Positions 34,453-38,315 of a stretch of 64,000 bases of DNA are shown here, one piece after another (position 1 is the first letter of the stretch; every line of letters starts with the position of its first letter). The translations under genes and the position numbers were made by a program. The notes below the pieces were generated by a model, which worked only from the letters and a program-made list of their open reading frames with translations, had not been told where the DNA came from and made no database searches. This DNA is from Luteitalea sp. (GTDB taxonomy: Bacteria > Acidobacteriota > Vicinamibacteria > Vicinamibacterales > Vicinamibacteraceae). The stretch covers positions 62,001 to 126,000 of the forward strand of contig WHTT01000002.1 in NCBI GenBank assembly GCA_009377605.1. Direction: 5' to 3'.

Positions 34453-34516
34453 AATCAGTGACGAGTGACGAGTCACGAGCCGGCGCTTCGCGGCTCGTCA
34501 CTCGTCACTCGTCACT
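34453..34516. repeat. Inverted AGTGACG heptamers between the DnaC-like gene and hspR
   Basis: AGTGACGAGTGACGAGTCACGAGCC on one side faces GGCTCGTCACTCGTCACTCG on the other across a short GC-rich loop (described here in parts). The arms pair over about 20 bases. The hspR stop codon (TGA) is part of the first repeat unit, as for nusB. Confidence 0.8.
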
Positions 34517-34967
34517 TCTCAGTCCTGACCGTCTCGACATCAATGGTCGGTTGCGTCGATTGATCGGCGCGAGGTGCGGGTGGGGGGTGCGACGCGCGCA
34601 CGAGCGTCGTTGGTGTGGAGCGGACAAGGGCCGTCGAGAGCCGCTGCTCCCAGTCACCCAGACCGCGCGCCAGCTCGCGCTTGACGTACTCCATGAACTC
34701 GTTGACCTCGTGCTGCATCTGCTCGATCCGCTCGCGCATGTTGAGGATGATCTCGACACCGGCGAGATTCACGCCGAGCTCGCGCGTGAGCGACAAGATG
34801 GTCTCGAGCCGCTCGAGGTCTTCGTCCGAATAGAGCCGCGTATTGCCTTCGGTCCGCGACGGCTTGAGGAGTCCTTCGCGCTCGTACAGACGGAGGGTCT
34901 GCGGGTGAATATCGTACCGCTTCGCCACCGCGCTAATCATGTAGTACGCCTTGCCGTGTTTGGCCAT
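34512..34967 (-). CDS. hspR: MerR-family heat-shock repressor HspR
   Basis: A 151-residue MerR-type regulator. The N-terminal winged helix reads YMISAVAKRYDIHPQTLR then LYEREGLLKPSRTEGNTR and LYSDEDLERL, followed by a dimerisation helix (ILNMRERIEQMQHEVNEFM) and a disordered tail. In actinobacteria HspR sits at the end of dnaK-grpE-dnaJ-hspR and represses it by binding HAIR operators (CTTGAGT-N7-ACTCAAG) with DnaK as co-repressor. Here it directly follows dnaJ with a 2-base gap, which makes the same autoregulatory role likely. I could not find a convincing HAIR operator at the dnaK promoter. The last codon and stop lie in an AGTGACG repeat. Confidence 0.88.
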   Translation of the reverse strand: MAKHGKAYYMISAVAKRYDIHPQTLRLYEREGLLKPSRTEGNTRLYSDEDLERLETILSLTRELGVNLAGVEIILNMRERIEQMQHEVNEFMEYVKRELARGLGDWEQRLSTALVRSTPTTLVRASHPPPAPRADQSTQPTIDVETVRTEK

Positions 34968-34969
34968 AG

Positions 34970-36061
34970 CTAGGTGCTATGCCCCTTCCTGCTCTCTTCG
35001 TTCCAAATCGACGCAAGCTCGCGCATGAGCGCACGCGCACGCTCATCGACCAGCGGCGGCAGCACGAGTCGGACGTGCACGATGAGATCCCCCCGGCGAC
35101 CGAGCCGCAAGGAGTGCATCCCACGCTCGCGCACGCGAAACCGCTGGCCCCCCTGCGTGCCCGGCGGGATGCGCAGCATTGTGGTACCGTCCGGTGTGGG
35201 CACCTCCAGGCGCGCACCCAAGGCGGCCTCGTGCACGCCCACCGCGAGCTCCAGCGCCAAATCGTCCCCGTCGCGCTGAAACAGCTCGTGCGGCGCGACA
35301 CGTACGCGCACCCGCAGGTCACCGCGCGGCCCACCGTAGCGCCCGGCATGTCCCTGGGCGCTCACGGTGATCTCGTCGCCGTCGGCAACGCCAGGCGACA
35401 CGGGAACCTCCCTCGCGTGACTGCGCGTGATCACACCTTCGCCGTGGCACGCCTGGCAGCGCGCCGCTCGCTGGTACCCATCACCATGGCACTGTGAGCA
35501 CGTCTTGGAAAACACCATGTGCCCACGAGCCCCACGGACGATGCCCTCACCACGACACCTCGGGCAAACGGCTTCGGGCACCGCGATCCAGCCCGCACCA
35601 AAGCAGGCATCACATGGGTCGTGGCGTGTCACGGTGACCGAGTGCTGGCCGCCGGCGGAGGCTGTCTCGAAGGGCGCGGTGATCTCCACGTGCAGATCGG
35701 CCCCGCGCTCCGGTGCCCTGGCAGAGCCTCGCTGCTGCGGCCGAAACATGTCCGCAAACAGCTCACCAAACGTCGAGGCTGCCATCCCCTCCGCCGACGC
35801 GCTGAAGTCGAAGCGCTCGAACGCAAACGTCACCCCGCCCGCCTGCGCCAACATCGCGTCCCCGCGCTGGTCGTACTCGCGCCGCTGATTCGGATCGCTC
35901 AAAATCTCGTACGCGAGGGTCACGACGCGAAAGCGCACTGCCGCCGCCTCATCACCCGGATTGATGTTGGGATGATACCGGCGAGCAAGCCGACGATATG
36001 CCCGGCGCACATCCGTGAGCGTTGCGTCCGCCGGCACCCCGAGGATGGCATACAGGTTCAT
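34970..36061 (-). CDS. dnaJ: DnaJ co-chaperone with HPN in place of HPD
   Basis: A 363-residue type I J-protein. The J domain covers residues 1-65 (MNLYAILGVPADATLTDVRR). The zinc-binding domain has all four CXXCXGXG-type repeats (CDACFGAG, CPRCRGEG, CSQCHGDG, CQACHGEG), and the C-terminal substrate-binding domains follow (APHELFQRDGDDLALEL, PPGTQGGQRFRVRERG). The catalytic HPD tripeptide reads His30-Pro31-Asn32 (RRYHPNINPGD); the codon is AAC. In E. coli DnaJ the matching Asp-to-Asn change prevents stimulation of DnaK ATPase. The Gly/Phe linker is short. grpE is absent between dnaK and dnaJ. Start at 36059-36061. Confidence 0.9.
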   Translation of the reverse strand: MNLYAILGVPADATLTDVRRAYRRLARRYHPNINPGDEAAAVRFRVVTLAYEILSDPNQRREYDQRGDAMLAQAGGVTFAFERFDFSASAEGMAASTFGELFADMFRPQQRGSARAPERGADLHVEITAPFETASAGGQHSVTVTRHDPCDACFGAGWIAVPEAVCPRCRGEGIVRGARGHMVFSKTCSQCHGDGYQRAARCQACHGEGVITRSHAREVPVSPGVADGDEITVSAQGHAGRYGGPRGDLRVRVRVAPHELFQRDGDDLALELAVGVHEAALGARLEVPTPDGTTMLRIPPGTQGGQRFRVRERGMHSLRLGRRGDLIVHVRLVLPPLVDERARALMRELASIWNEESRKGHST

Positions 36062-36098: not shown

Positions 36099-38000
36099 CT
36101 ACTTCTCGTCGACGACCTCGGCGTCGATGACCTCCCCATCGCCGCGGTCTGTGGCACCGCCGGCACCCGGGCCGGCATCACCACCAGGCGTGTCCGCCGG
36201 CCCGGCCGTCTGCTGATACAGATGTGACGCGAGCGCGTGCTGTGCCTGAGTCAGACGCTCCATGGCTTTGTTCGTCGCGGCGACGTCGTTGGCCTCGAGC
36301 GCCTTCTTGACGTCGTTGATGGCCGCTTCGACCGTCGCGCGATCCGCAGCGGGCACCTTGTCACCCGCATCCTGCAACGCGCGCTCGGCGACATAGACGG
36401 CCTGGTCGGCACGATTGCGGGTCTCCGCCTCGTCACGCCGCGCCTTGTCCTCTTCGACGTGGAGCTCCGCATCCTGGCGCATCCGCTCGACCTCGTCCTT
36501 GCTGAGGCCGCTCGATGCGGTAATGGTGATCTTCTGCTCTTTGCCGGTCGCGCGATCCTTCGCCGAGACGTTGACGATGCCGTTCGCGTCGATGTCGAAG
36601 GTCACCTCGACCTGTGGCACGCCACGCGGCGCTGGCGGGATGCCGTCCAGGATGAACCGTCCCAGCGCTCGATTATCACGCGCCATCTGACGCTCGCCCT
36701 GCAACACGTGCACCTCGACGCTCGTTTGACTGTCGGCCGCTGTCGAGAAGACCTCGCTCTTGCGAGTCGGAATCGTCGTGTTCCGCGAGATCAGCGTCGT
36801 CATGACGCCGCCCAGCGTTTCGATGCCCAAAGACAGTGGCGTCACGTCGAGCAGGAGCAGATCCTTCACCTCCCCGCCCAGGACGCCTGCCTGGACCCCC
36901 GCCCCGACCGCCACGACCTCGTCCGGATTCACGCCTTTGTGTGGCTCTTTGCCGAACAGCTCCTTGACGATCTGGTTCACGCGTGGAATGCGCGTGGAGC
37001 CACCCACGAGGACGACCTCGTCGATGGCGGACGGCTGGAGTCCTGAATCGGCCAGCGCCTGCTTGCACGGGCCAACCGTCTTCTGCAGCAGGTCATCGAC
37101 GAGCGACTCGAACTTCGCCCGCGTGAGCTTCATCGAGAGATGTTTGGGCCCGGTTTGATCCGCCGTGATGAAGGGCAGGTTGACCTCGGTCTCCATCAAC
37201 GTCGACAGCTCCATCTTGGCCTTCTCGGCCGCTTCCTTCAATCGCTGGAGCGCCATACGGTCCTTGCCGAGATCGATGCCTTCGGCCTTCTTGAACTCGG
37301 TGATGATCCAATCGATGATGCGCTGGTCGAGGTTGTCGCCGCCGAGGTGCGTGTCACCGTTGGTCGCCTTGACCTCGACAACGCCTTCGCCCACCTCGAG
37401 AATCGAGATGTCGAACGTGCCGCCGCCGAAGTCGTAGACCGCAATCTTCTCGTCCTTCTTCTTGTCGAGGCCATACGCAAGCGCCGCGGCCGTCGGCTCG
37501 TTGACGATCCGTACGACCTCGAGACCGGCAATCTCGCCGGCTTCCTTCGTCGCTTGGCGCTGCGCATCGTTGAAGTAGGCAGGCACGGTAAGGACGGCCC
37601 TCGCGACCGGCTGTCCGAGATAGTCCTCCGCCGCCTGCTTCAGCTTCTGCAGCACCATGGCCGAGATCTGCGGCGGCGCCCACTTCTGAGCCCCAGCGTC
37701 GATACGCACGTCCTGCCCCAGGGGCGCCACCTTGTACGGCACCATCTTCATCTCTTCCGAGACTTCGTCGTACCGACGGCCCATGAAGCGCTTGATGGAG
37801 AACACCGTGTTCTCCGGGTTGGTGACCGCCTGCCGTTTGGCCACCTGGCCGACGAGACGCTCACCCGACTTGGTGAACGCCACGACCGACGGGGTCAGCC
37901 GACTCCCTTCCTGATTGGTGACAACGGTCGGCTCGCCGCCCTCCATGACCGCCACCACCGAGTTGGTTGTACCCAAGTCGATGCCAATGATCTTGCTCAT
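36099..38000 (-). CDS. dnaK: Molecular chaperone DnaK (Hsp70)
   Basis: A 633-residue Hsp70. The N-terminus is [20 protein letters not shown]. The ATPase signatures [19 protein letters not shown] and [20 protein letters not shown] are intact, the interdomain linker is [20 protein letters not shown], and the C-terminal tail is acidic ([12 protein letters not shown]). The start at 37998-38000 has a GAGGATC ribosome binding site; an ATG 14 codons earlier gives a non-family leader. It leads the dnaK-dnaJ-hspR operon from the strong promoter at 38137-38165. grpE is not in the cluster. Confidence 0.96.
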
Positions 38001-38136: not shown

Positions 38137-38165
38137 AGCATAAAATATGAGTGTCATCCTGTCAA
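38137..38165 (-). promoter_or_regulatory. Predicted sigma-70-type promoter of dnaK-dnaJ-hspR
   Basis: On the minus strand a perfect -35 TTGACA (38160-38165) is followed after exactly 17 bases by TATGCT (38137-38142). The AT-rich segment stands out from the GC-rich surroundings. An ACTCAT half-site lies in the spacer, but a full HspR inverted repeat is not visible. Confidence 0.7.
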
Positions 38166-38315
38166 TGCCATCCCTCGCCACGGCCACCGTCGGCGGCAGG
38201 CCGTTGCACGGCGCGTTCGGCGAGCGTCAGTCCTCCGCACGAGATTTCCCTGAACGCTCTCGCTTTTCTGCTACACTGAACCTGTCAGCCTGCCTGAGTA
38301 CACGTCGAGGGCTTC
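38166..38315 (+). promoter_or_regulatory. Upstream region of the FecR-domain gene
   Basis: This region contains a remnant of the double-palindrome repeat (GGCGCGTTCGGCGAGCG near 38211-38227) and a possible -10 box TACACT at 38272-38277 without a clear -35. A GAGGG ribosome binding site lies just before the ATG at 38316. Support for the promoter is weak. Confidence 0.3.

Follow-up and report, generated by a model that had tools for sequence, protein, structure and literature searches.

J proteins with altered HPD motifs or MerR-type partners

Few functional residues of J proteins are as strongly conserved as the aspartate of the HPD motif, whose replacement by asparagine constitutes the standard dead control. 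Escherichia coli DnaJ (TIGR02349/PRK10767) combines a J domain, four zinc repeats, and two C-terminal beta domains, and its gene adjoins dnaK. Its aspartate, D35, touches R167 and Q378 of DnaK, and the D-to-N exchange abolishes ATPase stimulation in every system tested (PMC8215388). The D35N mutant is suppressed by DnaK R167H in E. coli (Suh et al. 1998, cited in PMC5519331).

Natural deviations from HPD are found in type IV J proteins, such as DNAJB13 (HPL), Pam16, and the Plasmodium type IV proteins, which have a recognisable J domain with a changed motif and probably do not stimulate Hsp70 (PMC13254874). The type IV proteins of this 2026 review belong to class B or C by their domains and are mainly eukaryotic, and the review treats it as unknown whether J proteins that deviate from HPD arose by accident or by selection (PMC13254874).

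Other J proteins are encoded beside a MerR-type partner that binds them, for example, CbpA with CbpM in E. coli and CbpA with HspR in Helicobacter pylori; both CbpA proteins lack a zinc domain and are active co-chaperones of DnaK. CbpM, which has a MerR fold, binds the CbpA J domain via helix 2 and the HPD loop; Tyr25, Arg26, Ala29, His33, Val36, and Phe46 of CbpA are important by mutagenesis, and the changes K26R/M30R/R36V give DnaJ weak CbpM binding (PMC4063869). The H. pylori CbpA is encoded in the hspR operon; it binds HspR and modulates the binding of HspR to DNA (PMC7074700).

The protein analyzed here, DnaJ2 of Luteitalea sp., shares its domains, length, and neighbouring dnaK with E. 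coli DnaJ, but carries HPN and scores below the NCBI equivalog cut-offs (317.3 bits vs. 377.2 for TIGR02349, 316 vs. 338 for PRK10767), which are passed by DnaJ1, its paralogue in the same genome (413.1 bits for TIGR02349). The exchange is identical to that of the laboratory D35N mutant and lies at the same position, although here it is natural, fixed in several lineages, and found with an unchanged R167 in DnaK. As in type IV proteins, a recognisable J domain contains a substituted HPD motif; DnaJ2 is, however, a full class A bacterial protein, with recurrent loss of the aspartate only, and is a bacterial class A counterpart of these HPD-less J proteins. Like the two CbpA proteins, it is encoded beside a MerR-type protein, its putative partner HspR; unlike CbpA, DnaJ2 has a zinc domain.

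The dnaK-dnaJ2-hspR operon and the paralogue DnaJ1

The window, the whole 64,000-nucleotide stretch analyzed, corresponds to positions 62001-126000 of contig 2 (Table 1). The earlier note had described an otherwise complete DnaJ with HPN, in the gene order dnaK-dnaJ-hspR, and this description is borne out. The open reading frame starts with ATG, the protein begins MNLYAILGVPADATLTDVRRAYRRLARRYHPNINPGD, and the J domain reads RRYHPNINPGD, with the AAC codon at the position where class A proteins have an intact HPD. The four CxxCxGxG repeats (CDACFGAG, CPRCRGEG, CSQCHGDG, and CQACHGEG) and both beta domains are present, as that note had also stated, and the zinc-repeat cysteines show no variation across 22 DnaJ2 orthologues. 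All three Pfam models are above their cut-offs, namely DnaJ (PF00226, 76.4 bits vs. 27.8), which corresponds to the J-domain fold, and DnaJ_CXXCXGXG (PF00684) and DnaJ_C (PF01556), which provide the zinc-repeat and beta-sandwich client-binding part of class A. The J-domain helices are predicted by AF2 to be well folded (pLDDT about 81-93, residues 1-70). Asparagine is a conservative replacement of the aspartate, whereas the glycine or arginine found in relatives is non-conservative.

Table 1. Features of the dnaJ2 operon and other J proteins of the genome; coordinates are those of the window unless another contig or locus is named.
Feature	Position	Strand	Remarks
dnaJ2	34970..36061	(-)	class A DnaJ, 363 aa, HPN replacing HPD
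Altered HPD motif, His30-Pro31-Asn32	35966..35974	(-)	codons CAT CCC AAC
hspR	34512..34967	(-)	MerR-family heat-shock repressor; passes the NCBIfam HspR equivalog; weak CbpM homology
dnaK	36099..38000	(-)	sole Hsp70 of the genome to pass the DnaK equivalog; no change at the tested J-domain contacts
Candidate HAIR-like operator, ATTGACAGGATGACACTCATA	38146..38166	(-)	conserved upstream of dnaK in relatives
dnaJ1	34431 of C2 (the window's contig)		class A with HPD; downstream of grpE and an hrcA-like ORF
CbpA-like protein			HPD; third J protein of the genome
J-domain-only protein	L357:2496-2786 (C136), outside the window		96 aa; CPPD replacing HPD

A sequencing error at the AAC codon or a one-off change, which the earlier note had considered, is refuted by the second species of the genus, where HPN uses other codons for its H and P (CACCCGAAC against CATCCCAAC) in a DnaJ that is 79% identical. 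The wider explanation that the HPN proteins reflect sequencing errors or pseudogenes is scarcely credible. It could draw on the draft genome G080, whose DnaJ2 (L354, G080:C29) has an in-frame TAG immediately before HPN, a sign of a pseudogene or an assembly error that makes this particular HPN doubtful; against it stand the codons of the second species, the 3-contig assembly of another HPN genome (G147), and the open frames and low dN/dS found elsewhere.

A J-domain search of the 6.8-Mb, 382-contig genome yields four J proteins. The dnaK-dnaJ-hspR operon contains no grpE; that gene accompanies the second dnaJ on the same contig, some 28 kb beyond the window. The alternative DnaJ that the earlier note had envisaged is thus present, with HPD, in what looks like an hrcA-grpE-dnaJ locus, since the ORF beside grpE-dnaJ1 resembles hrcA. 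DnaJ1 from 110 loci of the order always keeps the aspartate (109 with HPD, and one with a masked His but D), including 35/35 genomes that combine a non-D DnaJ2 with a detected DnaJ1; in three genomes with a non-D DnaJ2, all drafts (G043, G075, and G089), DnaJ1 was not found. That part of the earlier proposal is, therefore, well supported, while its other part, a DnaJ2 acting as regulator of HspR, is plausible by inference.

The J-domain-only protein with CPPD is encoded a short distance upstream of a divergent Hsp70 (L357:3492-5411), which falls below the DnaK cut-offs; with these two, the genome has another noncanonical pair of J protein and Hsp70.

HspR scores 107.9 bits, above the NCBIfam HspR equivalog cut-off of 105, and matches the CbpM model weakly (E 6e-4). 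An hspR-like ORF lies near dnaJ2 in most orthologous loci. HspR is near-invariantly hydrophobic at the positions aligned with CbpM L59, L63, V72, and L76, and its residues show no difference between HPD and non-HPD lineages. At the positions that correspond to 26, 30, and 36 of E. coli DnaJ, DnaJ2 has R, R, and I (R23, R27, and I33), and DnaJ1 has K, L, and R. The arginine at the M30 position, R27, occurs in 135/135 rows; many bacterial J domains share this pattern of two arginines and a hydrophobic residue, which is not peculiar to partners of HspR and so weighs against an HspR-specific reading. By analogy with CbpA and CbpM, docking of the DnaJ2 J domain on HspR is plausible. HspR also matches Thermus DafA weakly (PDB 9dvi chain S, E 0.018), in an entry that also contains Thermus DnaJ, and DafA is possibly a further MerR-like partner of a DnaJ.

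Searching with the canonical HAIR consensus, with up to 3 mismatches, gives no match at the operon, and the acidobacterial variant emerged only by comparison. TTGACA-N7-(A/G)CTCA precedes dnaK in most named relatives (L038-L117), above shuffled controls, and is a candidate acidobacterial variant of the HAIR operator. A genome-wide search for an HspR regulon with this pattern gives 3 exact matches, which is about chance, and the one at dnaK alone adjoins a chaperone gene; such a regulon is, on this evidence, rejected. Its TTGACA, as a -35 hexamer, and TATGCT 17 bp downstream, as a -10, form by eye a plausible sigma-70 promoter.

Recurrence of the aspartate loss and selection on the J domain

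DnaJ2 was collected from 162 genomes of the order Vicinamibacterales, with 138 strong matches, 136 of them showing the J-domain motif. At the third position of HPD, 98 of these orthologues have D, 29 have G, 7 have N, and 2 have R. The aspartate is, therefore, missing from 38/136 copies of DnaJ2, as against 0/110 copies of DnaJ1, and its loss from DnaJ2 is more than chance. Non-D proteins are present in 9 of 15 families; family f10 has HPG or HPR throughout (13/13), and arginine is found only there. HPN is distributed over Luteitalea (2), f12 (2), f6 (1), f8 (1, G147), and f4 (1, the doubtful G080).

The maximum-likelihood DnaJ2 gene tree, made without the third HPD column, requires 11 changes between D and non-D (10 without G080 and the N-masked G135), loss and regain being only partly separable, and offers 8 phylogenetically independent contrasts on strongly supported branches. 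The same rows contain zero changes at R24, R27, H30, P31, N34, P35, A50, L54, and R60. Some of the changes are recent and scattered, for example, within one genus, in which G147 has HPN and G145 and G146 have HPD. The DnaJ of the HspR operon has, thus, repeatedly lost the HPD aspartate, and specifically this residue, in one bacterial order, an independent recurrence as N, G, and R of which the earlier note was unaware. No report of such a loss in acidobacteria was found in the open-licence literature.

HPG also occurs in two genomes of another family of the phylum (G226 and G245), so the pattern is concentrated in the order, rather than strictly confined to it. Elsewhere in the phylum, the sole HPN match (G361) belongs to an ORF unlike DnaJ and was discarded. 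On the gene tree, DnaJ2 of Luteitalea clusters with family f6 (support 87), apart from the second genus of its own family, a matter of transfer or of family assignment.

Branch lengths of the J domain and the C-terminal part were compared on a fixed topology. The J/C-terminal ratio is 0.98 on HPD branches (95% 0.88-1.08), 1.10 on non-HPD branches outside f10 (0.93-1.26), and 1.14 in f10 (0.82-1.47), with overlapping intervals for all three classes. Pairwise J-domain dN/dS is mostly 0.05-0.22 where both members lack the aspartate, similar to HPD pairs. It is 0.146 between the two Luteitalea species, 0.30 between G147 and its HPD congeners, and 0.69 in the near-identical pair G036/G075, where it comes from very few changes. 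Decay of the J domain is rejected, as the rise in rate is not significant and dN/dS is low; judged from these sequence comparisons, purifying selection acts on the remainder of the domain.

Two lineages show additional changes. Family f10 (e.g., L209, L210, L212, and L217) has an acidic residue in place of R22 and, in 9/13 sequences, Leu in place of K26, while His and Pro are kept; these substitutions suggest a fuller loss of DnaK docking in this family. The basic residue at K48 is mostly lost from HPG sequences outside f10. Raw counts of basic residue loss are 13/38 in non-D against 15/98 in D sequences at K48, and 18/37 against 2/98 at R22, mostly from f10, but the correlation of either loss with that of the aspartate is non-significant after phylogenetic correction, as the independent pairs are too few.

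Triggering, docking, and regulation as possible functions of DnaJ2

As one of two options, the earlier note had suggested that DnaK compensates. Two full-length Hsp70 proteins of the genome were scanned, and that of the window alone passes the DnaK equivalog cut-offs, so that DnaJ1, GrpE, and DnaJ2 presumably share one DnaK. Every readable operon DnaK retains R167, N170, T173, E217, Q378, L391, P419, and D477, and E206 is nearly invariant, in HPD and non-HPD lineages alike. Compensation of the known type is, therefore, absent at all known J-domain contacts tested, in a DnaK that must also serve the HPD-bearing DnaJ1, and the suggestion finds no support.

The HPN and HPG J domains could still stimulate their cognate DnaK adequately through other contacts. 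HPD/AAA mutants leave residual stimulation in some systems, as noted in one MD paper (PMC13012618), and Hsp70 responds to a de novo J-domain analogue that lacks HPD (PMC13254874). A still-active co-chaperone is, nevertheless, very unlikely, given the inactivity of D-to-N proteins in every system tested (PMC8215388), the unchanged DnaK partners of the aspartate, R167 and Q378, and the restriction of the loss of D to the paralogue with a back-up. That back-up could also have relaxed the constraint: with DnaJ1 making triggering by DnaJ2 redundant, the aspartate would drift through the easiest mutations, from GAY to AAY or GGN, and DnaJ2 would be an ATP-independent holdase with no regulatory role. 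N and G are indeed single-transition neighbours of the Asp codons; R is confined to the HPG family f10, and changes are scattered and partly recent, as in G147. Drift should, however, reach His and Pro, neither of which has changed on the non-HPD branches, although these amount to about 9.6 substitutions per J-domain site, and the low J-domain dN/dS and the persistence of dnaJ2 in the operon throughout also make this explanation an improbable one.

The invariance of His30 and Pro31 could equally fit a DnaK that is still engaged. DnaJ2 might bind DnaK via helix II, His, and Pro, be unable to fire hydrolysis, and thereby recruit DnaK or compete for it, for example, by holding it at HspR as co-repressor or by dampening DnaJ1. 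Helix II is basic in most non-f10 sequences, DnaK keeps L391, P419, D477, E206, and E217, DnaK serves HspR as co-repressor in Streptomyces (cited in PMC4063869), and competitor or recruiter roles of just this kind are proposed in the 2026 review (PMC13254874). Family f10, however, replaces the R22 and K26 equivalents yet retains His and Pro, and most HPG sequences outside it no longer have the basic residue at K48. Such a non-triggering DnaK docker is fairly unlikely, if less so than drift.

The repeated exchange of the aspartate in DnaJ2, together with its retention in DnaJ1, suggests that DnaJ2 has taken on another job. The reading that we tentatively prefer is that DnaJ2 is a subfunctionalised class A J protein, a non-triggering client binder that modulates HspR. 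Without the Asp-R167 contact, DnaJ2 would trigger ATP hydrolysis by DnaK weakly or not at all, a loss strongly predicted from the published D-to-N results, which would leave DnaJ1 as the triggering co-chaperone. With fold and surface retained, DnaJ2 would be kept as an ATPase-uncoupled client-binding protein, whose Tyr25, Arg26, Arg30, His33, hydrophobic residue 36, and Phe47 (E. coli numbering) would dock HspR, in the manner of the CbpA J domain and CbpM. Repression of the operon by HspR, via the HAIR-like box, would then vary with the client load of DnaJ2. Homology and synteny argue with moderate strength for the retention of DnaJ2 as such an HspR-linked client-binding regulator. Several points count against this reading: 98/136 orthologues have HPD with the same hspR neighbour, so regulation of HspR does not require the loss of the aspartate; HspR itself is alike in HPD and non-HPD lineages at the residues compared; and, as Asp35 forms part of the CbpM interface, a contact of that type might well be affected by losing it.

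A bolder version, possible but doubtful, is that a class A DnaJ has repeatedly been turned from a DnaK trigger into a DnaK-uncoupled, client-titrated partner of HspR, with the J domain as docking surface for a MerR-type regulator. If true, this would be a chaperone-sensor circuit separate from the folding cycle. The order offers a natural experiment, in which one gene has undergone at least 10 separate changes at only the HPD aspartate. As the same cells hold an HPD paralogue and an unchanged DnaK, the question of accident or selection becomes testable, and matched HPD, HPN, and HPG orthologues exist, some of them from the same genus.
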